Source: Sphingomonadales bacterium (lineage in GTDB: Bacteria; Pseudomonadota; Alphaproteobacteria; Sphingomonadales; Govanellaceae). Taken from it: DNA of 44,826 bases. The stretch covers positions 47,718 to 92,543 of the forward strand of contig JACFMS010000013.1 of the NCBI GenBank assembly GCA_019455285.1, read 5' to 3'. Made by a program: the position numbers and the translations under genes. The notes below the pieces were generated by a model. That model searched no databases, was not told where the DNA came from, and saw only the letters and a list, made by a program, of their open reading frames with translations. This document shows, one piece after another, positions 2,455 through 28,126 of the stretch; the stretch's first letter is position 1, and each line of letters starts with the position of its first letter.

Positions 2455-3471
2455 CTAGGCCTCGCCATAGCCGTCAGGATTCTGCCGCTGCCAGTTCCAG
2501 GCGTCGGCGCACATGACGTCCAGATCGCGCGCGGCGCGCCAGCCCAAAAGACGATAGGCGCGCGTCGGATCGGCGTAACATTCGGCAACGTCGCCGGGCC
2601 GGCGAGCGACGATCTGGTACGGAATGCGGCGGCCGCTGGCCCGCTCAAACGCGGTCACCACCTCGCGCACGCTGTAGCCCCGTCCGGTGCCGAGGTTAAG
2701 GGTGACCAGTCCGTCGTTTTGCAGCAGATAATCGAGCGCCGCCACATGGCCCTGGACGAGGTCCATGACATGGATATAGTCGCGCACCCCGGTGCCGTCC
2801 CGGGTCGGGTAATCGCCGCCGAAGATCTTCAGCTCCGCCCGCTTGCCGACCGCGACCTGGCAGACATAGGGCAGGAGGTTGTTGGGAACGCCGTTCGGAT
2901 CTTCGCCGATGCGGCCGCTCTCATGGGCGCCCACCGGATTGAAATAGCGCAGGATGGCGATCCGCCAGGCGGGGTCGGCGGCGCGGATGTCGCGCAGCAT
3001 GTCCTCGATCATCAGCTTGCTGCGGCCATAAGGGTTGACCGCCGCGGTCGGGAAGTCCTCGGTGATGGGCACGGCAGCCGGATCGCCATAGACGGTGGCG
3101 GAGGAGGAAAAAACCATGGTCTTGACCCCCGCCTTGGCCATGGCCTCAAAGAGGGTGGCCGAGCCGGCGACGTTGTTCTGATAATAAAGGAGCGGCTTCT
3201 CGGTCGATTCGCCGACCGCTTTTAAGCCGGCGAAATGAATGACGGCAGCAAATTTTCCCTCGGCGAACAGCCGGTCAAGAAGCTCGGCGTCGCGGATATC
3301 CCCCTCAATAAACTTAAGGTCGCGGTTGGTGATGAGCCGCACCCGGTCGAGGGACGCCGCCTTGGCGTTCGACAGGTTATCGAGCACCACCACCTCATGC
3401 CCGGCGGCGAGAAACTGGACGCAGGCATGGGAGCCGATATAGCCCGCCCCGCCGGTCACCAGGATCTTCAC
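2455..3471 (-). CDS. galE: UDP-glucose 4-epimerase
   Basis: It interconverts UDP-glucose and UDP-galactose (or the N-acetyl forms) with bound NAD, supplying sugar nucleotides for surface polysaccharide. It is an extended SDR: the Rossmann motif TGGAGYIGS lies at residues 6-14, the catalytic Ser is in FSSSATVYG, and the YGRSK motif carries the catalytic Tyr and Lys. I chose the GTG start at 3471, giving 338 residues, the usual GalE length. A strong GGAGGG lies 6 bases upstream, and the extra N-terminal residues of a longer reading frame (to 3564) have no GalE counterpart and are Arg-rich. It is the first gene of the leftward operon with the flippase and the asparagine-synthase-like gene, and is divergent from paaA. 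Confidence 0.95.
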   Translation of the reverse strand: MKILVTGGAGYIGSHACVQFLAAGHEVVVLDNLSNAKAASLDRVRLITNRDLKFIEGDIRDAELLDRLFAEGKFAAVIHFAGLKAVGESTEKPLLYYQNNVAGSATLFEAMAKAGVKTMVFSSSATVYGDPAAVPITEDFPTAAVNPYGRSKLMIEDMLRDIRAADPAWRIAILRYFNPVGAHESGRIGEDPNGVPNNLLPYVCQVAVGKRAELKIFGGDYPTRDGTGVRDYIHVMDLVQGHVAALDYLLQNDGLVTLNLGTGRGYSVREVVTAFERASGRRIPYQIVARRPGDVAECYADPTRAYRLLGWRAARDLDVMCADAWNWQRQNPDGYGEA

Positions 3472-3634
3472 TTTATTCCCTCCACGCTCGCCGTTTATGC
3501 CGCGTCGCGGCCTTCTATATAGCCGAGCCTGCCAATAAATCTTTAAGGTTTTAATATGATACAAAAAACAGTTTCGTTTTTATTTTTTTGTGGCATAATG
3601 GGGGCTGCACAAAGAATTCAAGAGGAGTGACCCG
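3472..3634. promoter_or_regulatory. divergent galE / paaA promoter region
   Basis: This 163-base region is clearly AT-rich between GC-rich genes, with T-rich runs around 3573-3590. A possible rightward -10 (CATAAT, 3594-3599) lies about 36 bases upstream of the paaA GTG. AGGAG at 3623-3627 is the paaA ribosome binding site (7-base spacing). GGAGGG at 3478-3483 (minus strand) serves galE. I found no convincing PaaX-like or PaaR-like palindrome. Promoter positions are tentative. Confidence 0.45.
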
Positions 3635-4648
3635 GTGTATACCCAAGGTCTTGATATTCCGAAGGGCGATAAAAGTATCCCCGTCGAACAGGGTGATTCG
3701 CCCGAAGCCGTCCGCTTCCAGGCCCGCATCGACGCCGATGAGAAGATTGAGCCCAAGGACTGGATGCCGGAGGGCTACCGAAAGACCCTCATTCGGCAAA
3801 TCTCCCAGCACGCCCATTCCGAGGTCATCGGCATGCAGCCGGAAGGCAATTGGATCACCCGCGCCCCGACCTTGCGGCGCAAGGCGATTTTGATGGCCAA
3901 GGTGCAGGATGAAGGTGGCCATGGCCTTTATCTTTATAGCGCCGCCGAGACGCTGGGCGTGTCACGCGACGAGCTGGTCGACCAACTGCTGGACGGCTCG
4001 GCCAAATATTCCAGCATTTTCAATTATCCGACGCTGACCTGGGCCGACATCGGCGCCATCGGCTGGCTGGTGGACGGCGCGGCGATCATGAACCAGATCC
4101 CGTTGTGCCGCTGTTCGTACGGTCCCTACGCCCGGGCGATGATTCGCATCTGCAAGGAAGAAAGCTTCCATCAGCGCCAGGGCTATGAGCTGATGCTGTC
4201 GCTGTCGCGCGGCACCGCTGAACAAAAGGCGATGATGCAGGACGCCTTTGATCGCTGGTGGTGGCCGGCGTTGATGATGTTCGGTCCGCACGACACCAAG
4301 GGCGGCGCCGAGGGCATGAAGTCGCAGCATTCTGAGCAGTCGATGAAATGGCGCATCAAGCGCGTCTCCAACGACGAGCTGCGGCAGAAATTCGTCGACG
4401 TGACGGTGCCGCAGGCGGAATACTTAGGCCTCAAGGTGCCGGACCCGTACTTGAAGTGGAACGCCGCAACCAGCCATTATGACTTCGGCCCCATCGACTG
4501 GGATGAATTCAAGAACGTGCTGGCCGGCAACGGCCCGTGCAACAAGAAGCGCCTTAAGGTGCGGCGCGAAGCGCATGAGCGCGGCGCCTGGGTGCGCGAG
4601 GCGGCCATGGCCTACGCCGCCAAGAAGGCCAAGCGTCAAGCCGCCTGA
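3635..4648 (+). CDS. paaA: 1,2-phenylacetyl-CoA epoxidase, catalytic subunit PaaA
   Basis: It is the di-iron catalytic subunit of the PaaABCE multicomponent oxygenase, which epoxidises the ring of phenylacetyl-CoA with O2 in the cytoplasm. The 337 residues match the family length closely. Ferritin-like di-iron ligand motifs are visible: [11 protein letters not shown] (Glu and His of the first helix pair) and [10 protein letters not shown] (E-E-x-x-H). It starts with GTG behind AGGAG (spacing 7). It is the first gene of the paaABCDE operon; paaB follows after a 33-base gap. No other phenylacetate genes (paaK, paaG, paaZ, paaJ thiolase) are in the window, so the rest of the pathway must be elsewhere. 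Confidence 0.96.
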
Positions 4649-4681
4649 TTTATTTGTTTCAAGCATAAGGAAACGCAAGAG

Positions 4682-4969
4682 ATGTCACGCAAGGAGTGGC
4701 CTCTGTACGAGGTCTTTATCAGAAGCCGCAATGGCCTCAATCATATGCACGTCGGCAGCGTGCACGCGCCTGATCCCAAGATGGCGCTGGAGAATGCCCG
4801 CGATGCCTACACCCGGCGCGGCGAGGGCGTGAGCATCTGGGTCGTTGAATCGAACGCGATTGCCGCCTCCGATCCCGGCGAGAAAGCCTCGCTGTTTGAA
4901 CCGCTGGCGGAGAAGGTCTATCGCCACCCCACCTTCTATGACATTCCTGACGAAGTGAAGAACATCTAA
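4682..4969 (+). CDS. paaB: 1,2-phenylacetyl-CoA epoxidase subunit PaaB
   Basis: It is a 95-residue small subunit of the phenylacetyl-CoA epoxidase. In the characterised complex PaaB connects PaaAC heterodimers and helps electron transfer from PaaE. Family-typical features are WPLYEVFIR near the N-terminus, HVGSVHAPD, and the C-terminal YRHPTFYDIPDEVKNI. AAGGA lies upstream of the ATG. Its stop shares one base with the paaC start (TAATG), indicating coupled translation. It has no catalytic motif of its own. Confidence 0.96.
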   Translation: MSRKEWPLYEVFIRSRNGLNHMHVGSVHAPDPKMALENARDAYTRRGEGVSIWVVESNAIAASDPGEKASLFEPLAEKVYRHPTFYDIPDEVKNI

Positions 4970-5736
4970 TGAGCGCCGTCATCGATAAAGCCGATATCGC
5001 ATCTTACGCCATCCGCTGGGGCGATGATGCGCTGATCTTGAGCCATCGTCTGGCCGAGTGGTGCGCCGACGCGCCGGAATTGGAAGAAGACATGGCGCTG
5101 ATGAATCTGGCGCTTGACCTGGTGGGCCAGGCGCGCACGCTTTACACCTACGCCGGCGAATTGGAAGGACGGGGACGCGACGAAGACGCCATCGCCTTTA
5201 CCCGCGAGGAACGCGAGTACAAGAACGCCCTTCTCGTCGAGCAGCCCAACGAGGATTTCGCCTACGCCGTCACCCGCCAATTTCTTTACGACGCCTTCAG
5301 TCTGCCGTTCTATCAGGCGCTGGCGTCGTCAAAGGATGCGACGCTCGCCGCCTTGGGCGAAAAGGCGGCCAAGGAAGTGCGCTATCACGTAAAGCACAGC
5401 GCTGATTGGGTCGTGCGTCTCGGCGACGGCACCGATGAAAGCCATCGCCGCATGCAGACGGCCATCGATGAGCTGTGGACTTATACCGGCGAGCTTTTTG
5501 TCAATGATGACCTGGATCGGCGAATGATTGCCGCCGGCATCGGCGTCGATCTAACCGCACTTAAAGATTCCTGGAACGAGACAGTGAACGCCGTTCTCAA
5601 GGAAGCCACCTTGGTGCGGCCCGCCGACGGCTGGATGGCGACCGGCGGCCGTGAAGGACGGCACAGCGAATACATGGGTTATCTGTTGGCGGATCTGCAA
5701 TACATGCAGCGCGCCTACCCCAACATGAAGTGGTAG
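4969..5736 (+). CDS. paaC: 1,2-phenylacetyl-CoA epoxidase structural subunit PaaC
   Basis: It is the 255-residue ferritin-fold partner that forms the heterodimer with PaaA. It lacks a functional di-iron centre in characterised homologues and has a structural role. Visible family features include GDDALILSHRLAEW near the N-terminus, MNLALDLVGQARTLY, and HVKHSADWVVRLGDGTDESH. The ATG overlaps the paaB stop by one base, and paaD starts one base after its stop. The length is usual for the family. Confidence 0.96.
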   Translation: MSAVIDKADIASYAIRWGDDALILSHRLAEWCADAPELEEDMALMNLALDLVGQARTLYTYAGELEGRGRDEDAIAFTREEREYKNALLVEQPNEDFAYAVTRQFLYDAFSLPFYQALASSKDATLAALGEKAAKEVRYHVKHSADWVVRLGDGTDESHRRMQTAIDELWTYTGELFVNDDLDRRMIAAGIGVDLTALKDSWNETVNAVLKEATLVRPADGWMATGGREGRHSEYMGYLLADLQYMQRAYPNMKW

Positions 5737-5737
5737 C

Positions 5738-6250
5738 ATGACCACCGTCGACGCCAGGAGCAAATCACGGGAAGAACAGGCCGTCTGGGCGGCGCTGGCG
5801 CACGTCATGGACCCGGAGATTCCCGTCGTCTCGGTGGTCGATCTCGGCATCGTGCGCGGCGTATCCATCAACGGCGATGACGTCGAGGTGGCGGTCAGTC
5901 CCACCTACACCGGCTGCCCGGCGACCCAGCTCATCGAAATGGAAATCTTAGAAGCGCTGCAGCGCAACGGCTACCCCAAGGCGCGGGTCAAGCGCGTGTT
6001 GTCGCCGGCCTGGACCACCGAATGGATCAGCGAGCAAGGCCGCGATAAATTGCGCGCCTACGGCATCGCGCCGCCGGCCGCCGTCAAGGGCCGCGTCTCG
6101 GCGCTTTTGGGGGAAGAAGCGGAAGTCGCCTGCCCGCGCTGCGGCTCCCGGAACACCCGCAAGGTGAGCGAATTCGGCTCGACGCCCTGCAAGGCGCATT
6201 ACGCCTGCGCCAATTGCCTGGAACCCTTCGATTATTTCAAATGCCTGTGA
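5738..6250 (+). CDS. paaD: phenylacetyl-CoA epoxidase assembly protein PaaD (MIP18/DUF59 family)
   Basis: It has 170 residues. The N-terminal two thirds is the MIP18/DUF59 domain (AHVMDPEIPVVSVVDLGIV, then YTGCPATQLIE with the conserved Cys). The C-terminus is a Zn-ribbon-like tail with CPRCGS, a central Cys (STPCKAH), CANC, and a last Cys in YFKCL. PaaD is needed in vivo for the epoxidase and is thought to help assemble its metal or Fe-S centres, probably on PaaE; it is not part of the purified complex. It starts one base after paaC and lies 22 bases before paaE. Confidence 0.95.
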   Translation: MTTVDARSKSREEQAVWAALAHVMDPEIPVVSVVDLGIVRGVSINGDDVEVAVSPTYTGCPATQLIEMEILEALQRNGYPKARVKRVLSPAWTTEWISEQGRDKLRAYGIAPPAAVKGRVSALLGEEAEVACPRCGSRNTRKVSEFGSTPCKAHYACANCLEPFDYFKCL

Positions 6251-6272
6251 AGATATAAGGACGGCTATTCCG

Positions 6273-7346
6273 ATGTCGCAGTTTCACGCTCTCAAAATCG
6301 CCTCCATCACCCCGGAAACCGATGATGCGGTGAGCATCGTTTTTGACGTGCCGACAGCGCTGCAAGACACTTTTCGCTTCACTCAAGGCCAGCACTTGGT
6401 GTTGCGCATGACGTTGAATGACGCGGAAGTGCGCCGCACCTATTCGATTTGCGCCAGCCCCGACGATGGCGTGCTGAAAATCGCCGTCAAGCGCTTTCCC
6501 GGCGGCGTGTTTTCCAATTTCGCCACCGATCAATTAAAGCCCGGCGACGCCATCGACGTGATGCCGCCGGTGGGCCACTTCTTCACCCCGCTCGATCCAT
6601 CGCAGGCCAAAACCTACGTCGCCTTCGCCATTGACGAAGGCATCACCCCCATTCTCTCGCTGGTCAAGACCACACTGGCGCGTGAGCCGAAAAGCCGCTT
6701 CGTGCTGTTCTACGGCAACGAAACAGTGAACAACATCCTGTTTCGCGAAGAGATCGAGGACTTGAAGAATTTGTACATGGCCCGCCTCAGCCTGTTTCAT
6801 ATTTTAAGCCGCGAGGAACAGGAGGTTGACATTCTCAATGGCCATCTCGATGGCGAGAAGGCGCGGGCGCTGGTGCAAGCGTTCTGCCCCGCCGAGGTCA
6901 TCGACGAGGTCTTCATCTGCTGCCCGCAGGACGTCACCAACGATATCGTAAGCGCGCTTGGCGACCTGGGCGTCGCCAAAAACCACCTCCACTTCGAGCT
7001 GTTCCACACCGCCGCCCTGGCTGAAAAAGCGCCACTGCCGGCAAAAAAGGAAACCCGGGAGAACGCCGCCCACGTCACCTTGACCTTGAACGGCCGCAAG
7101 ACCGAATTCGACATGCCGCTTGATGGCACGAGCGTGCTGGCGGCGGCGCGCGATCGCGACATCGACGCGCCATTCTCGTGCCGCGACGGCGTGTGCGGCA
7201 CCTGCCGCGCCAAGCTCATCGAAGGCAAGGTCGATATGGCGGTCAACTATGCGCTGGAAGAAGAAGACTTGGCGGCGGGCTTCGTGCTCACCTGCCAGGC
7301 GCGGCCGCTCACCGACAAGATCGTCATCGACTACGATCAGGCGTAA
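6273..7346 (+). CDS. paaE: 1,2-phenylacetyl-CoA epoxidase reductase PaaE
   Basis: It is a 357-residue flavin and 2Fe-2S reductase that passes electrons from NADPH to PaaA. An FNR-type FAD domain is N-terminal (RTYSICASP, the flavin-binding R-x-Y-S). A nucleotide-binding domain is in the middle. A plant-type ferredoxin domain is C-terminal, with CRDGVCGTC and a fourth Cys in VLTCQA. The usual nucleotide-binding GxGxTP motif reads IDEGITP, so its first Gly is replaced by Asp and the next residue by Glu (see findings). It is the last gene of the operon, and its 3' end overlaps the convergent mnmC by 10 bases. Confidence 0.95.
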   Translation: MSQFHALKIASITPETDDAVSIVFDVPTALQDTFRFTQGQHLVLRMTLNDAEVRRTYSICASPDDGVLKIAVKRFPGGVFSNFATDQLKPGDAIDVMPPVGHFFTPLDPSQAKTYVAFAIDEGITPILSLVKTTLAREPKSRFVLFYGNETVNNILFREEIEDLKNLYMARLSLFHILSREEQEVDILNGHLDGEKARALVQAFCPAEVIDEVFICCPQDVTNDIVSALGDLGVAKNHLHFELFHTAALAEKAPLPAKKETRENAAHVTLTLNGRKTEFDMPLDGTSVLAAARDRDIDAPFSCRDGVCGTCRAKLIEGKVDMAVNYALEEEDLAAGFVLTCQARPLTDKIVIDYDQA

Positions 7347-9295
7347 GATTCATTCCGCTTCACCTCCCGCACCCAAAACCGCGCCGGATGGAAGGCGTCG
7401 AGCGCGGCGCGCTCCACCGGCGACGGCAGCCCGGTTACTTGCGCCGCCAACGCTTCCGCCAGCAACGGCGCGGTCAAGAACCCGCGCGCGCCCAGTCCGG
7501 TCAGCACATAAAGCCCCGGCCGATAACGCGCCGCAGGGTATGGCCCGCGTTTGCCCTGCCGCAAGCCCGCGTAAGAGGCCGCATAATGATCCATGTCGGG
7601 CGCGCCGCCTAAGATCGCCAGGTGGTCGGCGGTGGTGGCGCGCACCTGAGCGCGGCCTTTGAGCGTCGCCGGATCAGGGAGCGGCAGGTGCGGGAGCGCT
7701 TTTCCCAAGGCCCGCAGGTTGCGCGCGGCGGCATCGCCTTTGGAGGATACCGGATTATCGGGCGACACCACATCGAAAGTGGCGCCTAGCACGTGCGCTT
7801 TTCCTCCCTCGACATCGGCCGCCGGCGTCAGATAGCCGTTGAACATCAAGACCGTGCGTAGATCGGCAATGCCGGCGAATGGCGGCAGAAAGGTGATCTC
7901 GCCGGCCCGGGCCTGAAACGCGAAGGGCAACGGGGCCAGGCGCGCCGTGGCCAGCGCCGCCGCCAGCACCACGACCTCCGCCCGATCCACCTCAGCGCCT
8001 GACGGATCAAGAAGCGTCCAGCCGCCATCATCTTCGCGCAGCGCCGCAATCTCTGAGCGGCGGCGCACCTCCACCTTCGTCGTCGCCTGCACGGCCAAGG
8101 CCTTGGGCCGCGCCAGCCCGGCGTGGGGCAGATGGAGCGCCGGCTGGCCCAACGCTATCCCCGCCGCCGCCGCGGCGTCCGCCGCTTCCAGATAGCGCAG
8201 ATGGTCGACCGGCAACAGCCGGTCCGCCGCCAGCAGCGCGCCCTGCTGACGCGCCGCCTTATCGCCCAACAGTCGCACAATGCCGCAGGGTTGCCACACC
8301 TGCGGCCCCCACCCGCCATAACGCCGCAGCAGGTGAAGGTAGGCGGCTACATGGCTGCGCGCCACGGCGTTGCCGCCGCGGTCGAGCCACGGCTCCACCA
8401 CCGCCGCCGGATTGCCCGACGCTCCCGCCGCCACAGCGTCCGCCGCCTCGTGAAGCGTCACCTGCCGCCCCAGATCGGCCAGCGCCGAAGCCGCCATCAG
8501 GCCGGCGATGCCGCCGCCGACCACCGCCACCTTACCGCTTGATCTGGGCGGCGGCGCGAACCATGGCCGGGGATCGGGGACAGCGGCAACACCCTCGAAA
8601 CGGGCCCGCAGACATTCGCGCTTCGGCCCGAAGCCCGGCGCTTTTTCCACCGCAAAACCGTGGGCAATGAGCCGCCGCCGGACTTCGCCCGCCACCGTGA
8701 ACGAAGCGAGCCGCGCATTGGGCGCCGACAAGCGGGCGATCTCGGCCATCACCTCGTCGCGCCACATCTCGGGGTTGCGGTCGGGAGCGAAGCCATCAAG
8801 ATACCAGGCGTCAACCCGGGCGCTGAGCTCCGCCAAGGCGGCCGCCGCCTCGCCGAACAGCAACGTCAGCCGCACCCGGCCGTTATCGAAGGACAAGGGA
8901 TGAAAGCCCGCCACCGGCGGCGGGTAAGCGTCAATCAGCGCCGCCGCCAAGGGCGCAAGCTCCTCCCACGGCGCCAAGGCGCGGGCGAGATCGGCGCGGG
9001 ATAGGGGATAGCCCTCGACGCTGACCATATGCAGAAAACTTCCCGGCGCGGCGGTGCGCCGCCACAGATCCCAGGTGGTAAGGAAATTAAGCCCACAGCC
9101 GAAGCCGGTCTCGGCGATCACCGTATGCTGCCGCTTGGCCCACAGATCGGGCGCGCCGATGCCGCCTAAGAAGACATGCCGGGCTTCCCATAAGCCGTTT
9201 TCGGAATGAAAATAGACGTCGCCGAAGGCCACGGCGCGCGGAGTCGCGCCATCGAACGCCACGGCGGCAGGCGATAACTTATATGGCTCGGTCAC
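7337..9295 (-). CDS. mnmC: bifunctional tRNA mnm5s2U biosynthesis protein MnmC
   Basis: This 652-residue fusion has the order of E. coli MnmC. The N-terminal MnmD-like SAM methyltransferase (about 1-240) has ETGFGCGLNFL as the SAM loop. The C-terminal FAD-dependent oxidoreductase (about 250-640) has the dinucleotide motif VVGGGIAGL. The oxidase half removes the carboxymethyl group of cmnm5s2U34 and the methyltransferase half methylates the nm5s2U product, finishing the wobble base of several tRNAs. The C-terminal YVLTGLGARGF is typical of the FAD domain. It stands alone, convergent with paaE. Both halves look intact. Confidence 0.93.
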   Translation of the reverse strand: MTEPYKLSPAAVAFDGATPRAVAFGDVYFHSENGLWEARHVFLGGIGAPDLWAKRQHTVIAETGFGCGLNFLTTWDLWRRTAAPGSFLHMVSVEGYPLSRADLARALAPWEELAPLAAALIDAYPPPVAGFHPLSFDNGRVRLTLLFGEAAAALAELSARVDAWYLDGFAPDRNPEMWRDEVMAEIARLSAPNARLASFTVAGEVRRRLIAHGFAVEKAPGFGPKRECLRARFEGVAAVPDPRPWFAPPPRSSGKVAVVGGGIAGLMAASALADLGRQVTLHEAADAVAAGASGNPAAVVEPWLDRGGNAVARSHVAAYLHLLRRYGGWGPQVWQPCGIVRLLGDKAARQQGALLAADRLLPVDHLRYLEAADAAAAAGIALGQPALHLPHAGLARPKALAVQATTKVEVRRRSEIAALREDDGGWTLLDPSGAEVDRAEVVVLAAALATARLAPLPFAFQARAGEITFLPPFAGIADLRTVLMFNGYLTPAADVEGGKAHVLGATFDVVSPDNPVSSKGDAAARNLRALGKALPHLPLPDPATLKGRAQVRATTADHLAILGGAPDMDHYAASYAGLRQGKRGPYPAARYRPGLYVLTGLGARGFLTAPLLAEALAAQVTGLPSPVERAALDAFHPARFWVREVKRNESYA

Positions 9296-9340
9296 CGGCG
9301 CACTATACGTTCTTGATACATGTCGGCGACGACCATAGCC

Positions 9341-9370
9341 AAAAAAAGGGCCGGGGGATATCCCGGCCCT
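9341..9370 (-). terminator. rho-independent terminator of the TonB receptor gene
   Basis: On the minus strand a perfect 9-bp stem (AGGGCCGGG / CCCGGCCCT, positions 9370-9362 and 9355-9347) with a 6-base loop is followed directly by seven T. It starts 26 bases beyond the receptor's stop codon and before the mnmC start. The A-run on the plus strand lies 5' of the stem, so it is best oriented leftward. Confidence 0.9.
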
Positions 9371-9395
9371 TAAGATATATGCAGAGGAAAAAAGG

Positions 9396-11699
9396 CTAGA
9401 ATCGGAAGGTGATGTCGGCGCCCCAGGTCCGCGGCGTTGCCTTGGTGACGAAATTGAATACGGTCACGTTGGGCACCACCAGCACCACGCCGTCGGCATT
9501 GTAATTTTCATCAAACAGGTTGCGCGCCCACAGCGTGAAGCTCCAGTTTTCAGCATCCAGGCCAATACGCGCATCCACCAGATCGATCGGCTTGCGCTTG
9601 GTGCCCGGCGTATTAAGAGTATCGAAATAGATCGGGCCGGTGCGGAAATAGTCCACCCGCGTCACCATGTCCATGCCATTGCCCAGGGGATAGACGTATT
9701 GCATGCCAACATTGGCGGTGTATTCCGGCGTGAATGGCATGGTATTGCCAACGGTTTGCGGCGCTTCATTGTTGCGCTTGATCTCCGAGTCGATGTACCC
9801 AAAGCCGCCATAGAACGTCCAACCCTCGTCCAATCGCGCCGTGAAGTCGAATTCAAAGCCCCAGATTTCGTTCTTGTCGACGATGGATATCACCCGCGAC
9901 AGGGAGAAGGGAAAGAATTGGAAGTAGTGGGCATTGTTTACTTCCGTGTAGAACGCCGCGCCGTTCACAGACAGTTTGCGGTCCATCAGGCTGGACTTGA
10001 AGCCGATTTCGGCGGATTTCGACGTTTCCTTATCAAATGCATCCTGTACCGTGGTATCGGTGATGCCGTCGATATTGATGATGTTATCTCGACTGCCCAG
10101 CGGATTGAAGCCGCCGGAGCGAAAGCCTTCACCATAGGTTGCATAGAGCGAGACATCATCATTCGGTAAATATCTCAGCGAGACGCGCGGTTGAAAATCC
10201 GAGAAATCACTTTTGCGCACCAGCCCTGAATCGCTGGGATTATTGGTGAACTCGGGCGGCGTCAAGTTGGTGGTTTCGCGCTTCTCCTTGTCCCAACGCA
10301 CGGCAACGGACGCTTCCAGTTGTTCCGTCACGTCGTAGGCCAACTGACCAAATAGCGAATAGGCTTTGTTGTCATTGTCCGTCCAGGTCACCGCCACGGC
10401 GGGATTCTCGCTGTCGGGGCCGGGAGCCGGCTCCGGCACCACGACGCCATTGCCGGTATCAACGGCGCGGTTCAATACGACCTCCCGGCTAAAGTCGATG
10501 TAATAAGCGCCGACGATGTAGCGCAGCGCACGATCGTCGGGCGACGTGAAGCGAATTTCGAAGCTGGTGTCCTTTTGATTTCGTTCCTGATATTGCGTGC
10601 CGTCGCGCGGCGTTGGACCATAGCCTTCAAACAAGCTGGGATCAGTGAAGAAATCGCCGGGCGTGGGGTCGGGATAAAGACCGAACAGCGCCAAATCCAC
10701 GGCGCCCTCGCCGCCCATGTTTTCATCCAGTTTGTGATAGGCGCCGGTCATGGTCAACGTGCCGTAATCGCTGGTCCAATCCATCTTGATGGTGGCGTCA
10801 TAGCGCTTCTGATTGTTGAAGGAGCGCACATTGCCTGAAAATGGAATGGACGTATCATTGATGTCGACGCCGGTCTCGAAGCCCGGCGTGCCGCCGGTCT
10901 GATTGTTGAAATTGAAGGCGTGGCCATCCACGTCGGCATACCCGGCCGTGATATCGAATTCTACTGATTCGGATGCAGCGATCACCACCCGGCCGCGGAC
11001 GATGGCTTCCTGGAAGGGATCTTCCTCGTCATTGAGCGTGATGTTTTTGTAATAGCCCTGACGATCGGTATAGGACCCGGTGATACGGGCGAACACCTTG
11101 TCTTCCACAACGGGGCCGCTGACATAGCCGGAAAGCTTATATTCCTCGCCCTCCACTTCGTAGCCGCCCTTGAGCATGCCTTCAAAAGTATTGGAGGGCT
11201 TCTTGGTGGTCACGAGAATGGCGCCGCCGATGGCGTTGCGGCCATAAATTGAGCCGATCGGCCCTTTGATGATTTCGATCTGCTGGATGTCGACGAATTC
11301 CTGGTTAAAGGCATTGGGGTTTGGCACCAGCACGCCATCCAACACATAAGCGAAGGGCGGTTCCGTGTCGCGCGGCTGAATGACGCCGCGGATATGGACC
11401 TGGCTTTCGCCGATATTGGTGGTCTGTATGAAATGCACGTTGGGGGTAAGGGCGATGAAATTTTCCGCCCGATCGATACCGGCGCGTTCGATGGTGGCGG
11501 CGTTGAAGGCGTTCACGGCCATCGGCACGTCCTGCAAGGTTTCCGACCGCCGGCGGGACGTGACGAGGATTTCTTCAATCGGTGCGGCTGTGGTTTCTGC
11601 CGCCACCGCCGCCGATGGCAATCCCTGCAGGGCCGATACCGCCGCCGCGCTGACGGTGGCCAATAGCACAAAGGACTGGCTACGCTTCTGGTTACGCAT
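9396..11699 (-). CDS. TonB-dependent outer-membrane receptor
   Basis: It is a 767-residue receptor for energy-dependent import across the outer membrane. From the ATG at 11699 (GGAGG 9 bases upstream) it has a signal peptide of about 30 residues ending AAVAAE. A TonB-box-like stretch (IEEILVTSRRR) follows, then the plug domain (QDVPMAVNAF, VHIRGV, IEIIKGPIGSIYGRNAIGG) and a long beta-barrel ending with the aromatic TWGADITFRF. The sub-class resembles the large sphingomonad-type receptors whose substrates are often unknown organic molecules. It is divergent from the GntR regulator and shares with the CoA-transferase promoter the TTGTATACAA motif, so its substrate is probably that of the catabolic genes at 12622-19472 (inference). 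A longer reading frame reaches 11744 but lacks a signal-peptide start. Confidence 0.93.
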   Translation of the reverse strand: MRNQKRSQSFVLLATVSAAAVSALQGLPSAAVAAETTAAPIEEILVTSRRRSETLQDVPMAVNAFNAATIERAGIDRAENFIALTPNVHFIQTTNIGESQVHIRGVIQPRDTEPPFAYVLDGVLVPNPNAFNQEFVDIQQIEIIKGPIGSIYGRNAIGGAILVTTKKPSNTFEGMLKGGYEVEGEEYKLSGYVSGPVVEDKVFARITGSYTDRQGYYKNITLNDEEDPFQEAIVRGRVVIAASESVEFDITAGYADVDGHAFNFNNQTGGTPGFETGVDINDTSIPFSGNVRSFNNQKRYDATIKMDWTSDYGTLTMTGAYHKLDENMGGEGAVDLALFGLYPDPTPGDFFTDPSLFEGYGPTPRDGTQYQERNQKDTSFEIRFTSPDDRALRYIVGAYYIDFSREVVLNRAVDTGNGVVVPEPAPGPDSENPAVAVTWTDNDNKAYSLFGQLAYDVTEQLEASVAVRWDKEKRETTNLTPPEFTNNPSDSGLVRKSDFSDFQPRVSLRYLPNDDVSLYATYGEGFRSGGFNPLGSRDNIINIDGITDTTVQDAFDKETSKSAEIGFKSSLMDRKLSVNGAAFYTEVNNAHYFQFFPFSLSRVISIVDKNEIWGFEFDFTARLDEGWTFYGGFGYIDSEIKRNNEAPQTVGNTMPFTPEYTANVGMQYVYPLGNGMDMVTRVDYFRTGPIYFDTLNTPGTKRKPIDLVDARIGLDAENWSFTLWARNLFDENYNADGVVLVVPNVTVFNFVTKATPRTWGADITFRF

Positions 11700-21622: not shown

Positions 21623-21791
21623 GATATTGCAGCCGTCTAATTAAGTCAGCCCGTTGCAGCGTCGAAGGTCAGTATGAGGCTTAAGCCTTACCCAACTGTA
21701 AAAAACAAATCGCACTTGGTAAGCAAAGCGTTAACCATCTTTGGCGGATAACAGGGAGCGGCCATTGCCGTCGTTTGGAGTTCCGCTTTTC

Positions 21792-24062
21792 ATGCGCTCA
21801 GCCCTACTTTCCACGTCGTGGCGTTTATCGGCCGTCCTGATGGCCGCCGCATTGTCTGCTTGCAGCGGCGGCGGCAGCGGCGCTGTCGGCGGCCTCAGCC
21901 CATCGCCGACCCCAGCGACGGCGCCGCCGCCCACCTACGATACCGCCGAATACCGCGCCAATTATGGCTTGGGCGCTATCAACGCCATCGCCGCCTATGA
22001 GGACGGCCTATCCGGCGAGGGCGTCACCGTGGCGGTCATCGACACCGGTATCGATCTCGATCATCCCGATCTGAATACCAACATCAGCGCGCAGAGCATC
22101 GGCATTTCAGCCGGCACTTATGCCGCCGCCAATGACGCCGACGCTGAGGGCCATGGCACCGCGGTGGCCGGCGTCATCGCCGCCGAAAGGAACGGCAGCG
22201 GCATGCACGGCGTCGCCTTCGACGCCACCCTGTTGGCGATCAACGCCAGTGATCCCGCCACCTGCCCCGGGGAATGCGAGTTCGCCCAAAGCGCGTTGGC
22301 CGACGCCATTGATTATGCCAAAAACCGCGGCGCCAAGATCATCAACTTAAGTCTCGGCGGCGCGGCCGCCGGGCAAAGCCTGCAAAACGCCATGCAAAGC
22401 GCGGTGGAGGCCGGGGTGATCATCGTCATCTCGGCCGGCAACGATGGCGCCGCCATCCCTTCCGAGCTCGCGCAAATCGCCGGCGCCGGCTGGGCCGATG
22501 GCCGCATCCTCATCGCCGGCGCGGTGGACGCCAACAACCTCATCGCCGATTTCAGCGACCGCGCCGGCGACGCCTTCAAATCGCTTTATGTGGTCGCTCC
22601 CGGCGTCTCGGTGCGCACCACCGGGGTGGGCGGCGGCCAAGTGATCGCCACCGGCACCTCGTTCTCGACCCCCCATGTGGTGGGAGCGCTGGCGCTCCTG
22701 GCCGAACTGTTTCCCAATTTAAGCGCCCACGATCTGGCCGAGATCATCCTCACCACCGCCCATGACCTCGGCGAGCCCGGCATCGACGCCATCTACGGCC
22801 GGGGCATCATCGATCTTGACGCCGCCATCCAGCCCCTGGGCGTGACCGGCATCCCGACCGCGGGCGGCATCGTGCCGGCCGCCGCCGACACGCCGGCGCT
22901 GGCGGCCACCGCCTTGTCGCTGTCGCCCGCCTTTGGCGATGCCCTTGCCGGCCATGCCGCCTTCGCCAACGCCATGGCGCTTGACGGCTACCGCCGCTCC
23001 TACCGTTTTGATCTGAACCGCCTAACCGCCCGGTCTGACGGCAGCCGTGATTTGTTAAGCCTGATCGACAGTCGGCGCTACGGCATGGCGCGGCGCGAAA
23101 CCGTGGCCCCGGGCGTCACCTTGAGTTATGCCGCCGCCCGCGATGGCGAGCTTGACCGGCTGATCGATGCCGCCGCTGCCGAAAAGCCACGGCTCAGCGC
23201 CCGCCTTGGGTTGGAGCGCGCCTATGCCGACGGCAGCCGGCTGGCGCTCTTCGTCAACGATCCCGCCGCCGCTGTGGGCGGCGATTCCACTGCCGGAGTA
23301 TTTCTTCAACGGCAATCCTTGGCCTTCGGCCTTCTGGAGGACGACAGCGTCACCGCTCACGCCGAACGGCCGTGGGGCTTGGTGCGGCTGGGATTGACCT
23401 CCAGCTTCAGCAGGATCGAGGATGGCGCCGGGCCGCTTGCCGGCGGTTCAAGCCGACTGGCCATGGCCTCGGCCGCGATGGCGCTGGGCAGCCAGACGAC
23501 GGTCAGCCTGGGTCTTGGTCTGCTGGAAGAAGACGGTCTGGTGCTGGGCAGCCGTTCCGCCGGCGCGTTGCGCCTGGGCGAAGGCGCGACCACGCAGCTC
23601 CTGGACGGACGCCTGACATGGGCGGCGCGCCCGGATGTTACCGTCTTCGCCCATGGCGTCATCGGCCGCACCAGCATTACGGGTGGCGGCGGCAGCCTGC
23701 TGCGGCCGGCCGGCGATCTTGTCGTTGCCGCCGCCGAATTGGGCGCGCTGTGGCGCGGCGCGCTTCATGCCGGTGATGTCTTCGGCCTGCAACTATCGCT
23801 GCCGCCGCGTATCGAGGCGGGCAGCGTCGTCATCGGTCAAATCATCGGCCGCGACTATGCCGCCGATCGTTTGCAGTTTGCGGAAACCGCCGCGCCGCTG
23901 TCGCCCAGTGGGCGGGAAATGGATATCGAGGCGGCTTATGCCTTATCGCTGATCGGCGACGCCACGCTGCAAATCAACGCCAGCTACGTCATCGATCCCG
24001 GCCATCGCGCCGACGCCGGCGACGCGGTGTCGTTCCTGATCTCGCTGTCGCGGGCGTTTTAA
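21792..24062 (+). CDS. S8 subtilisin-like serine protease autotransporter lipoprotein
   Basis: It has 756 residues from the ATG at 21792; a TTG at 21741 would add 17 residues before the signal peptide. The signal sequence ends in a lipobox LSAC (Cys24). The catalytic triad is Asp84 (AVIDTGIDLDHPDL), His121 (EGHGTAVAGV) and Ser290 (GTSFSTPHVVGA). After a linker, the last about 280 residues look like a 12-strand autotransporter barrel ending ISLSRAF with a terminal Phe. The lipoprotein plus subtilisin plus barrel layout matches SphB1 of Bordetella and NalP of Neisseria, which mature other surface proteins. No obvious client gene is adjacent. It overlaps the convergent ligase gene by 4 bases. 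Confidence 0.9.
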   Translation: MRSALLSTSWRLSAVLMAAALSACSGGGSGAVGGLSPSPTPATAPPPTYDTAEYRANYGLGAINAIAAYEDGLSGEGVTVAVIDTGIDLDHPDLNTNISAQSIGISAGTYAAANDADAEGHGTAVAGVIAAERNGSGMHGVAFDATLLAINASDPATCPGECEFAQSALADAIDYAKNRGAKIINLSLGGAAAGQSLQNAMQSAVEAGVIIVISAGNDGAAIPSELAQIAGAGWADGRILIAGAVDANNLIADFSDRAGDAFKSLYVVAPGVSVRTTGVGGGQVIATGTSFSTPHVVGALALLAELFPNLSAHDLAEIILTTAHDLGEPGIDAIYGRGIIDLDAAIQPLGVTGIPTAGGIVPAAADTPALAATALSLSPAFGDALAGHAAFANAMALDGYRRSYRFDLNRLTARSDGSRDLLSLIDSRRYGMARRETVAPGVTLSYAAARDGELDRLIDAAAAEKPRLSARLGLERAYADGSRLALFVNDPAAAVGGDSTAGVFLQRQSLAFGLLEDDSVTAHAERPWGLVRLGLTSSFSRIEDGAGPLAGGSSRLAMASAAMALGSQTTVSLGLGLLEEDGLVLGSRSAGALRLGEGATTQLLDGRLTWAARPDVTVFAHGVIGRTSITGGGGSLLRPAGDLVVAAAELGALWRGALHAGDVFGLQLSLPPRIEAGSVVIGQIIGRDYAADRLQFAETAAPLSPSGREMDIEAAYALSLIGDATLQINASYVIDPGHRADAGDAVSFLISLSRAF

Positions 24063-25393
24063 AGCGAAAACACAACGTCGAGGTCGCCGGCGCGGGCCAG
24101 CTCCTGCAAGCGCCGACGATCGGTCTTGCCGGTAGTCAAGAGCGGCCAATCGGCAATGCCGTAAACCACCGCCGGCCAGGCGTTGCGCGGCAGATGGGCG
24201 CGTAAGGCGGCGGTGAGATTTTTACGTTCCAGCGGCGCTGCCGCAGCGACGGCGGCGATCACCTGACCCGCGCTCTGCCAGGCGGCGGCTTCCCGCGCCC
24301 CGGCGGCAAGGAGCGCTCGTTCGATCTCCATCAAGCTCAACCGTTCGCCGCCGACCTTGATCACCTGGTCGTGGCGACCAAGCACGTGCAACTGATCACC
24401 GCGCCACTCGCCGACATCGCCCGCCGCGATCCACGCGCCATGATCGATGATGCGGCCGTTGACATCCAACGTGCCCAGCGATGCCGAAGCGCCTTGAAAC
24501 AGAATGGGGCCGATATCCTCACCGTCGAGGCTCACCTTCAGCGTCGGCAGCGGCCGCCCCACCAGCGTCACCGGGTCTTGCGCGGTGATGACTTCGCGCA
24601 CCGCAAGGCGCGGCATGGCTTCGGCGCAGCCGTAATTGTTATATAGCCGCGCGTGGGGAAACAGTCGGCGCAATGCCGCCACGTCGCTGATGGGAAACGG
24701 CGCGCCGGCGAAATTTACGACTTTTACCGCCGGCAGCGGCGGCACCTGATCTAACCCTAAGCCGATGGCGAAGCGCAGCCACGGCGCGACCAGACACAGC
24801 ATCTCGACGCCGGCGTCGCGAAACCGCTCCAGCGCGGCAAGCGCATTAAGGGCGCCGCCGCTTAAATAGATTTCCCGCTCATAGAGCACTGCCCACAGCA
24901 ATTGATTGACCAGGGCATAGGAGTAGGCGAGCGGCAGCACCACGCCGGTACTGCGCGCGCCGGCAAGCCCTTGCGCGTCATGAATCGCCGCGATGCCGGC
25001 GGCGAGATTGGTTTCGTTGATGGCGACCAACTTCGGCTCGCCGGTGGAGCCGCTGGTCATCAGCGCGAGAAACAAGCGTTCATCCGCCGCCGCGCCGTCG
25101 CCACCCACAAGGCGGCCCTCTACATAATAGGCAAACCGCCCATAAGCCGCGCGCAAGCCAGCAAGCTTGGCCGGCGGCAGCGCCGGCGATATCACCACCG
25201 GCCGCACGCCGGCGGCAACCGCCGCCAGAAAATCCGCAACGCCATCTTTTGTGTTGGCCAACGGCCACAGCGCCGCTTGCCCGGCATACGGCGCGAACGC
25301 GCGCACTTGTGCGGCGACGTCAAGGGTCGCGCCGTCGAGGCGAAAGCCGCCTTGACCCAGCGCAGCTTTGGCGATGGCGTCGCGCAGCGTCAC
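24059..25393 (-). CDS. DltA-like adenylating enzyme (AMP-binding, carrier-protein ligase)
   Basis: It is a 444-residue ANL-superfamily enzyme. The P-loop is LMTSGSTGEPKLV, the adenylate motif YNNYGCAEAM, then AGDVGEW and GRHDQVIKVGGERLSLMEIE of the hinge, and the C-terminal Lys in TTGKTDRRRL. It is shorter than typical acyl-CoA ligases (about 500-550) and near DltA size. It would activate an acyl or amino acid with ATP and load it on the carrier protein encoded at 27878-28126. It starts with GTG 1 base after the stop of the microprotein gene and is the last gene of the five-gene leftward operon. The acid activated is unknown; D-alanine is only one option. Confidence 0.88.
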   Translation of the reverse strand: MTLRDAIAKAALGQGGFRLDGATLDVAAQVRAFAPYAGQAALWPLANTKDGVADFLAAVAAGVRPVVISPALPPAKLAGLRAAYGRFAYYVEGRLVGGDGAAADERLFLALMTSGSTGEPKLVAINETNLAAGIAAIHDAQGLAGARSTGVVLPLAYSYALVNQLLWAVLYEREIYLSGGALNALAALERFRDAGVEMLCLVAPWLRFAIGLGLDQVPPLPAVKVVNFAGAPFPISDVAALRRLFPHARLYNNYGCAEAMPRLAVREVITAQDPVTLVGRPLPTLKVSLDGEDIGPILFQGASASLGTLDVNGRIIDHGAWIAAGDVGEWRGDQLHVLGRHDQVIKVGGERLSLMEIERALLAAGAREAAAWQSAGQVIAAVAAAAPLERKNLTAALRAHLPRNAWPAVVYGIADWPLLTTGKTDRRRLQELARAGDLDVVFSL

Positions 25394-25394
25394 C

Positions 25395-25514
25395 CTAAAA
25401 CCCCTGATAGACGAAGCCGACCTCGCCGACGCCGGCGATGACGAGCAGGATAAGGCCGATCACGTAAAACGCGATGCGCCAGCCGCGGCGATCGAGCGGC
25501 AGAACGATTTTCAT
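25395..25514 (-). CDS. DltX-like acyl-shuttle microprotein (39 residues)
   Basis: This small gene has 39 codons. The N-terminus is short and basic (LDRRGWR at 7-13). A single hydrophobic helix of about 19 residues (about 14-32) follows, then a short outside tail ending Phe34-Val-Tyr36-Gln-Gly-Phe39 at the very C-terminus. In Gram-positive Dlt systems DltX is a one-helix microprotein whose C-terminal hexapeptide (FxYxxF-type) takes the acyl group on its Tyr from DltB and passes it to DltD. The gene lies exactly between the MBOAT gene (ATGA overlap at 25511-25514) and the DltA-like gene (1-base gap). The same frame reads upstream through the MBOAT gene, but that part is a shadow. Confidence 0.82.
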   Translation of the reverse strand: MKIVLPLDRRGWRIAFYVIGLILLVIAGVGEVGFVYQGF

Positions 25515-26716
25515 GACAGCACCCCGAACGTCAGAATTTTGGCGTAAAGCCGCAGGCTCGTTTCCAGATCGAAGGCGACGAAGGTCAGCGCATAACCGAT
25601 GGAGACATACCACCAAGTGGCCAGCGTCGCCGCCACGCGCCAGGCGATGGTCAAGCGAATGTCGGTTGCCCACTGCTTGTCGTTCGCCCAGCGGTGATAG
25701 GCCGCCAACAGCGACAGGCCTAGCCCATGATGCAGTCCCCACAGCGCCCAGCCCGGCGCCGGCGAGTGCCAGACGCCGATCATCAGGAAGGTGGCGAGGA
25801 GCGCCAGAGTCGGCGAGCGGTAGTTGCCCAAGATCGGAAAGTAGATGTAGTCGCGGGCCCAGGACGACAAACTGATATGCCAGCCGCGCCAAAACTCCGC
25901 CAGATTGGGCCGCAACAGCGGGGCCTGGAAATTTTCCATCAGCTTGATGCCGAACAACAGCCCGGTGCCGATCACCATGTGGGTATAGCCGGCGAAATCG
26001 AAGTAGGTATATAAAAACCGCGCGAACGCCGCGAGGAATGCCTGCCACCACAGCATGCCGCCGGCGATTTCCGCCGTCATCGGCACCGGATAGATCGCGA
26101 TCTTGATCAGCATTTCCGCGATGACGAATTTGAAGATCAAGCCGATGAGCAGCCGCTCCGCCGCCGTCGACGCTTGGTTCCAGGAAAAGGATACGGCGGC
26201 GAGCTCCTCCTTAAAGGCGGCGAAGCGTTCGATGGGTCCGGCGGCGAACATGGGAAAGAACAGGATATAGGCGAAGTAGTCGATCAGCGTGGCGTCGGCA
26301 AATTTGCCGCGGCTGGATTCGATCAGGAAACTGACATGCTTGAAGGTATAATAGCTGATCCCCAAAGGTACGGCGATCTCGCCCAGCGCGCCGAAGTGGT
26401 GGGCCAGCGGCAACACGTATTTGAAAGAAATCAACAGTGATAAGGGTACGACGATGGCCAGCGTCAGGCGCAGACCGCTGGGGTTGCGGCGCAGCCACGA
26501 GCCTAAATGAAAGACCGCCAGTGTCAGCAGCAAAAGCCCCGTCGTGGCCGCCGACGCATATTCGAAACTGACGCTCGTCAGTTGAGCAATGCCTAAAAAT
26601 CCGGCGCTGGCGAGGCTGAGCAACAGCGCGCGGGCGCGGGGTGTGCGACAAAACGCCCAGTAGCCGGCAAGGGAGAGCGCCAGAAACGGCAGGTAAGCCT
26701 GGGTTTGATAGAGCAT
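25511..26716 (-). CDS. MBOAT family O-acyltransferase (DltB/AlgI-like)
   Basis: It is a 401-residue polytopic membrane protein. The MBOAT core is clear: FWRGWHISLSSWARDYIYFPI, then FLMIGVWHSPAPGWALWGLHHG with the invariant His. It would move an acyl group from the carrier protein or a thioester in the cytoplasm to the outer face of the inner membrane. Its C-terminus ends ILTFGVLS and has no FxYxxF-type tail, so it lacks the fused shuttle motif seen in many Gram-negative MBOATs; that motif is on the next gene instead. It starts 3 bases after the stop of the SGNH gene. Confidence 0.92.
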   Translation of the reverse strand: MLYQTQAYLPFLALSLAGYWAFCRTPRARALLLSLASAGFLGIAQLTSVSFEYASAATTGLLLLTLAVFHLGSWLRRNPSGLRLTLAIVVPLSLLISFKYVLPLAHHFGALGEIAVPLGISYYTFKHVSFLIESSRGKFADATLIDYFAYILFFPMFAAGPIERFAAFKEELAAVSFSWNQASTAAERLLIGLIFKFVIAEMLIKIAIYPVPMTAEIAGGMLWWQAFLAAFARFLYTYFDFAGYTHMVIGTGLLFGIKLMENFQAPLLRPNLAEFWRGWHISLSSWARDYIYFPILGNYRSPTLALLATFLMIGVWHSPAPGWALWGLHHGLGLSLLAAYHRWANDKQWATDIRLTIAWRVAATLATWWYVSIGYALTFVAFDLETSLRLYAKILTFGVLS

Positions 26717-26719
26717 GGC

Positions 26720-27856
26720 CTAGGAACCCCCTGCCGGCGGCCGCAGCAACGGTCCCACCACGCTCAAGAAGGCCGTGCTCCATTTTCGCCGGCCGCTGTC
26801 GCCGACATGCGTGGAGTCATAATAATCCTCGACGCCAAGCGCCGCCGCGCCGTTGATGTCTGGCGTCAGCGCCGCCGTTTCCTCGCGCAGCCGCGTGATC
26901 AGCGCGCGATAGGCTTGCCAGCGCTCAGCGCCATAAAACGCTGCGTCCCGTCCGGCGATCATCGGCGCGTCGATCACCACGATACGCCCGCCGGCGGCGC
27001 GAATGCGCCGCGCCGCGGCCATCATCAATTCCTCATTCAGCCGGACATCCGCCGGCCGCGCCGCCGCCATGGTATCAACCACCAGGCGATGGTGCGCCGC
27101 CTGCGTCGCGGCGTCGCCATAGGGCAGTTCGCGATAGAGGTGAGGGCTGCGCGGCGGCGCGGTGACGCCGTAGACATTTTCCCGCAGCCAATTCTCCGGC
27201 GCCAGACGCAGCCAGCGGTACAAAACCAGCCGCAGCGCATTGCCCGTGGCGGCCAAACGAGTAACGAACGATACCTGCCGCAGCGCCGGAACATCTTGTT
27301 CAAGATCGTCAGCCAGCGACATGAAATCCAGCGGAATCAGACTGGACGCCACGGCGGTGGCGGCCGGCGCGCGCTTGAAAAGCCGGCTCGGGCTTAAAAT
27401 GAAAATGACCGTGGCATCAGGCTTGAGCTTCAGGGCGTCAAGATAAACCAGCATCTCTCCCGGCGTTTGATCACGGCTGGTCAAGACGGCGACGCGCAGC
27501 GGCCGGCCGGCGGCGGCGTTCAGCTGCTGTTGAAGTTCAAGCTCGATGGGCAAGGCCTCGCGGGCGGCGGAAGAGCCAAGCACCACGACATCAGCCGTTT
27601 TATCGCGCCAGCTCAGGGCGCGCCCGTACGTCCACAGCACGTCATCGGTTTCGCGGTAGCGCCCCAATTCCAGCCGCCGCGCCAGATAGTCCCGATCGGT
27701 GGGGTCGAAGGCGGCGAAGATCGCCCCGCGGACGGCAAAGACCGCGACAATGAACAGCGCCGTCAGCGCCGCGATCCAGGCCCAGTCGCGGCCCTGTAGC
27801 GGCGCATGGCGGATGTCGATGATGGTCTGGGTGACGCGGCGCGGCCGGCGAGCCAT
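26720..27856 (-). CDS. SGNH/DltD-like membrane-anchored acyltransferase
   Basis: It has 378 residues. A single N-terminal membrane anchor (about 27-50, WIAALTALFIVAVFAVRGAIF) is followed by an extracytoplasmic domain. VVVLGSSAAREAL (about 90-102) carries a likely catalytic Ser in a GSS context as in DltD, and the C-terminal YYDSTHVGD has the Asp-x-x-His pair of the SGNH triad. It would take the acyl group from the shuttle Tyr and place it on an envelope polymer. GGGGAG lies before the ATG. Order and spacing (21 bases after the carrier gene, 3 bases before the MBOAT gene) support one functional unit. Overall similarity to DltD is structural rather than close. Confidence 0.83.
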   Translation of the reverse strand: MARRPRRVTQTIIDIRHAPLQGRDWAWIAALTALFIVAVFAVRGAIFAAFDPTDRDYLARRLELGRYRETDDVLWTYGRALSWRDKTADVVVLGSSAAREALPIELELQQQLNAAAGRPLRVAVLTSRDQTPGEMLVYLDALKLKPDATVIFILSPSRLFKRAPAATAVASSLIPLDFMSLADDLEQDVPALRQVSFVTRLAATGNALRLVLYRWLRLAPENWLRENVYGVTAPPRSPHLYRELPYGDAATQAAHHRLVVDTMAAARPADVRLNEELMMAAARRIRAAGGRIVVIDAPMIAGRDAAFYGAERWQAYRALITRLREETAALTPDINGAAALGVEDYYDSTHVGDSGRRKWSTAFLSVVGPLLRPPAGGS

Positions 27857-27877: not shown

Positions 27878-28126
27878 TCAGAGAACGCCGCGGGCGGTCA
27901 GGAAACGGCCGATACGCGACAGGCTGTCCCAGTTGTCCAAGGTAATGTCGGCCGGATTGATGGCGACGCCGAATTTTTCCTCGACGAAACTGATAACCTG
28001 AAGGAGCGACATGGAGTCGATGAGCCCGGCGGTAAACAGCGGCTCGTTGGGGTCAATCTCGTCCGCGCCGAGACCGCCGAGATCCGCCACCATTTGCCGC
28101 AGCCCCGCCAACCGATCGTCCGTCAT
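27878..28126 (-). CDS. acyl carrier protein (DltC-like)
   Basis: It is an 82-residue acidic carrier protein. GLIDSMSLLQ contains the phosphopantetheine attachment Ser38 in a D-S-M context, and the helices predicted on each side fit the carrier fold. As first gene of the operon it would carry the acyl group activated by the DltA-like enzyme to the MBOAT protein. The ribosome site is a G-run (GGGGGG) upstream of the ATG. It could in principle serve another adenylating enzyme, but the operon makes the local one most likely. Confidence 0.9.
   Translation of the reverse strand: MTDDRLAGLRQMVADLGGLGADEIDPNEPLFTAGLIDSMSLLQVISFVEEKFGVAINPADITLDNWDSLSRIGRFLTARGVL

Follow-up and report, generated by a model that had tools for sequence, protein, structure and literature searches.

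The locus and its genes

The window, by which we mean the whole stretch of 44,826 nucleotides analysed here from a Sphingomonadales bacterium (contig JACFMS010000013.1 of assembly GCA_019455285.1), carries on its minus strand a locus at which genes for a ligase, a carrier protein, an MBOAT acyltransferase and an SGNH protein all lie together, as a Dlt system requires. Between the MBOAT and ligase genes lies a very short frame, the main subject of this work. The features are the following:

24059..25393 (-), DltA-like AMP-forming ligase, 444 aa (Pfam AMP-binding; DltA among the PDB matches)
25395..25514 (-), putative acyl-shuttle microprotein, 39 aa, DltX-like in role (orthologues in L001 and L002)
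25398..25415 (-), C-terminal hexapeptide FVYQGF of the microprotein (Tyr36 codon at 25407-25409; Tyr invariant in 16 aligned microproteins)
25425..25481 (-), presumed transmembrane helix of the microprotein, its single hydrophobic stretch at about residues 12-30 (17-residue hydropathy 2.7; limits approximate)
25511..26716 (-), DltB-like MBOAT acyltransferase, 401 aa, tail-less (Pfam MBOAT; conserved His280 and His317)
26720..27856 (-), DltD-like SGNH-type transferase with an N-terminal membrane helix (conserved Gly94, Ser96, Asp347 and His350; fold matches)
27878..28126 (-), DltC-like acyl carrier protein with a DSM phosphopantetheine motif (Pfam PP-binding; weak NCBIfam DltC match)

The DltC-like and DltD-like genes are located upstream of the MBOAT gene on the same strand, and a subtilase-domain protein (Peptidase_S8) encoded at 21741-24062 (+) adjoins the operon. 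The closest PDB sequence for the MBOAT is DltB (E 1e-32), which also provides the best fold match for its structural model (6bug, TM 0.77; mean pLDDT of the model 78), and all five relatives compared keep His280 and His317. The protein was not classed as a DltB equivalog, given that its score against TIGR04091 (DltB) is 178 bits, under the cut-off of 375, and that its clade stands apart from Firmicutes DltB. For the SGNH protein, the best matches of the model (mean pLDDT 70) are the DltD structures 6pfx and 6o93, at a modest TM of ~0.4, and there is no variation at Gly94, Ser96, Asp347 and His350 among seven relatives.

The microprotein gene

The product of window positions 25395-25514 (-) is MKIVLPLDRRGWRIAFYVIGLILLVIAGVGEVGFVYQGF, encoded by 39 codons followed by a TAG stop. 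A sequence-only reading had described a 39-residue peptide with an FVYQGF tail, an ATGA overlap and one-base spacing, and sequence and translation match this description exactly. The microprotein ATG overlaps the MBOAT stop (ATGA, within TCATGA), and a single base (25394) separates the microprotein stop from the ligase GTG at 25393. An F.Y..F ending occurs at only one of the 853 ORF ends in the window (ORFs of at least 30 aa), namely that of this microprotein. The same reading held that the neighbouring MBOAT lacks the shuttle motif, and its C-terminus indeed reads KILTFGVLS, with no FxYxxF.

Two orthologous operons bear on the coding status of the frame. Compared with L001, from the same genus, the microprotein gene has four base changes in 117 nt, three of them synonymous at third positions and one changing V to A, and a stop codon is kept (TAG in the window, TAA in L001). 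In the Gram-negative species Massilia niastensis (L002) the operon is arranged in the same order, and the MBOAT, also tail-less, shares 51% identity with that of the window; the microprotein gene there has exactly 39 codons, the ATGA overlap and the one-base gap to the next start, and it ends in HFVYQGY where the window has FVYQGF, the frame being preserved though most other codons differ. The frame-breaking changes that had been named as a possible refutation were thus sought without success, none being present against L001 and the frame being intact against L002. Because the changes against L001 are mostly synonymous and frame, length, spacing and tail are kept in Massilia niastensis, the 39-codon frame is, on comparative sequence grounds, a real gene.

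Relationship to DltX

The microprotein ends in an FxYxxF hexapeptide, FVYQGF, whose Tyr aligns with the DltX Tyr, and its small size and one hydrophobic stretch are as in DltX, the helix topology being presumed. Among 16 aligned microproteins, three of which are Firmicutes DltX, this Tyr is the sole invariant residue. Conservation of the Tyr had been anticipated together with that of the final Phe; the former held strictly and the latter did not, as position 6 varies among relatives (F, Y, I, L or N). The proposed likeness to DltX likewise stands for the tail pattern and the presumed role, and by sequence the peptide is no member of the Pfam DltX family. No match to PF12459 (DltX) was obtained for the window peptide or for seven relatives, while Firmicutes controls gave 2e-16 and 2e-20; across 398 genomes of the phylum no Pfam DltX match rose above cut-off, with sub-threshold, chance-like matches only, and a profile comparison of the free shuttles with DltX returned a probability of 22%. 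By analogy, it is probable that the microprotein works like DltX.

Tail-less and fused MBOATs

MBOAT loci were gathered from species genomes, plasmids and viral contigs, and complete MBOATs were sorted into fused ones, having the hexapeptide at their own C-terminus, and tail-less ones. A microprotein was counted if it lay on the same strand, was 30-100 aa long and had a hydrophobic stretch and [FLWIVM]xYxx[FYILNM] at the very end. Such a microprotein was found within 300 nt of 14 of the 22 tail-less MBOATs and of none of the 157 fused ones; the loci are not independent, and a Fisher p-value for these counts overstates independence, free and fused being separated by one change on the tree. For four of the eight remaining tail-less cases (L007, L213, L240 and the Firmicutes locus L134) a microprotein is located farther off in the neighbourhood, L006 ends at a contig end, L245 looks frameshifted and the L018 MBOAT itself ends in an atypical tail. 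The last, L215 (the G095 MBOAT, 3794-5482), showed neither tail nor microprotein, although on the tree it belongs to the carrier-linked clade described below. Atypical MBOAT C-termini are AVYGQR in L018 (5170-6669, Blastochloris) and NYYLAF and NYYLRF in L015 and L017 (Aquirufa).

The claim of a stand-alone shuttle is supported by these data, since the tail is conserved in orthologous operons whose MBOATs lack the motif (L001, L002) and occurs also in the distant L003, L040/L209, L007, L210, L211, L214 and L217-L219 as well as in seven Thermoleophilia loci. Free tails include FRYAGF (L040), FRYADI (L003), FRYILI (L210), LRYLEI (L211), FIYWDN (L214), FRYGQL (L217-L219), FRYVGF (L007) and, on a Leptolinea plasmid (L250), WIYQGF, the gene for which is annotated as a hypothetical protein. 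In the Thermoleophilia, which served as an out-of-sample set, all seven uncut operons combine a carrier, a ligase, an SGNH protein and a tail-less MBOAT with a microprotein ending in ...EFRYVGF; three more loci ended at contig ends and were left out of this count. One Thermoleophilia genome (L274) has a fused-tail MBOAT (2833-4419) directly adjoining the free-shuttle operon (4576-9999). The putative free shuttle is therefore not a one-off, since it recurs elsewhere among Gram-negatives and actinobacteria.

Carrier-linked loci outside Firmicutes carry the free microprotein, and no DltA-like ligase or carrier was present in the neighbourhood of any of 20 control loci with fused MBOATs. The link from carrier to free shuttle is one-way, as free shuttles also occur where no ligase or carrier was detected in the vicinity, in L212, L213, L246 and L240 (FIYVAF/FIYVSF) and in L250. 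The microprotein scan found no DltX tail near the plasmid dltABCD genes of the Firmicutes Niallia and Lactobacillus (L254, L255), and a scan of viral contigs with Firmicutes DltB returned the query itself as sole match.

Phylogeny of the MBOAT core

An unrooted tree of the MBOAT core (63 rows) was built with IQ-TREE. A branch supported at 100/99 separates all fused MBOATs from the rest, so that free versus fused amounts to one change; for this reason the survey counts describe retention across deep divergence and not many independent origins. The window MBOAT forms a clade (98/94) with 13 others, from 12 carrier-linked loci and the tail-less G095, and this clade is separate both from Firmicutes DltB (100/100) and from a carrier-less free clade made up of L212, L213, L246 and L240 (99/95).

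The ligase and its probable cargo

The window ligase aligns with DltA, in which an Asp binds the amino group of the substrate. This residue is common to all five Firmicutes DltA compared and is replaced by Ser in the ligases of the window, L001 and L002; among the other ligases compared, only that of L209 has Asp at the DltA position. Given a ligase that lacks the DltA Asp, the cargo is probably not D-alanine, and probably not an alpha-amino acid at all. In L210, L211, L214 and L217-L219, two successive AMP-binding ligases are encoded ahead of the SGNH-MBOAT-microprotein genes.

Proposed function and alternative explanations

We consider it highly probable, by analogy with known shuttles, that the microprotein serves as a free-standing acyl-tyrosine shuttle for envelope acylation by a carrier-dependent MBOAT-SGNH system in a Gram-negative host. 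The ligase would activate a carboxylic acid and load it onto the carrier protein, and the MBOAT would take the acyl group off the carrier thioester and attach it to Tyr36, which belongs to the presumably extracytoplasmic C-terminal hexapeptide of the microprotein, whose single helix may keep it beside the MBOAT and the SGNH protein. The microprotein would then pass the acyl group to Ser96 of the SGNH protein, which would in turn acylate an envelope polymer. Observation here covers the conserved gene, its association with MBOATs that lack a tail, the Tyr shared by all the aligned microproteins, and the conserved residues and folds of the partners. From the biochemistry of DltX and PatA, the latter forming acyl-Tyr on its fused tail (PMC12148441), we infer that an acyl-Tyr intermediate forms, that the proteins make up a complex and that transfer runs in this direction; the target polymer presumably belongs to the envelope.

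The microprotein could instead be a structural or assembly subunit that joins the MBOAT and the SGNH protein, its Tyr never being acylated. Single-helix microproteins are often scaffolds, and holding is among the roles of DltX as well (PMC12148441), but the Tyr is invariant while the sequence outside the hexapeptide is free to vary, and tail-bearing MBOATs do without any microprotein. As tail-bearing MBOATs need no microprotein and the Tyr is invariant, a shared function of the tail is pointed to, and we regard the purely structural role as improbable. It is less probable still that the 39 codons form an open frame by chance next to an MBOAT that is shuttle-free or served by another shuttle, an idea to which we give almost no weight: the frame is indeed short and overlaps another gene, but it is kept in Massilia with its length, spacing and tail at low overall identity, and equivalents exist in other carrier-linked loci.

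A further explanation is that the peptide is an ordinary DltX and the locus a true D-alanylation operon acquired from Gram-positives. The types of partner (ligase, carrier, MBOAT, SGNH) and the tail pattern are those of Firmicutes Dlt, and in both cases the microprotein gene lies immediately ahead of the ligase gene. However, the MBOAT belongs to its own clade apart from Firmicutes DltB and scores less than half of the DltB cut-off, the microprotein has no DltX Pfam match, and the Asp common to the five DltA compared is missing from the ligase, so that we hold such an acquisition to be very unlikely, between the two preceding alternatives in probability.

Implications for shuttle-dependent acylation

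MBOAT-SGNH pathways other than Dlt have been said to have neither a carrier nor a DltX-like microprotein (PMC12148441, the 2025 PatA/PatB study). The loci with a carrier and a free shuttle in Gram-negatives and actinobacteria contradict this statement, and the carrier-less clade with a free shuttle (L212, L213, L240, L246) forms a further exception to it. In the literature searched, the term "DltX-like" occurred in PMC12148441 only; a 2023 shuttle proposal lies outside that search, and an earlier mention of free shuttles in Gram-negatives is possible. On balance we lean, by a small measure, towards the view that free shuttles represent a broad class, so far unrecognised, within carrier-dependent MBOAT-SGNH systems of Gram-negatives and actinobacteria that load acids other than D-alanine, and that the free state may be ancestral, with fusion having perhaps taken place once. 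That carrier donors go together with separate shuttles can be framed as a rule open to testing, and the tree makes it possible to locate where the fused tail arose. Short genes that may be missed in annotation also become candidate members of envelope modification operons.

Comparison with known systems

Genes of the dltABCD type in Gram-negatives, as in the window, have been noted in Dickeya and Pectobacterium (PMC5541007), and no description of a DltX in these genera was found in the literature searched. TIGR04091, run at E 1e-60 against 197 genomes from a single family, gave no DltB match, a threshold that is possibly too strict for Gram-negative DltB. The PatA/PatB and AlgI-type MBOAT-SGNH systems share with the window the hexapeptide chemistry as proposed here and the occurrence in Gram-negatives, but differ from it in that their tail is fused to the MBOAT and in that ligase and carrier are missing near the fused control loci. 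The DltX of the Firmicutes Dlt system (PF12459; typical size 40-50 aa) is similar to the window microprotein in having one hydrophobic stretch, presumed helical in the latter, and an FxYxxF-type C-terminal hexapeptide, and in both systems the gene stands directly before that of the ligase and alongside those of a carrier, an SGNH protein and a tail-less MBOAT. Gene order differs, being X-A-B-C-D in Firmicutes Dlt and carrier-SGNH-MBOAT-X-ligase in the window, and the window system is further set apart from that of Firmicutes by the missing Pfam DltX match, the separate MBOAT clade, the ligase without the DltA Asp and the Gram-negative host.
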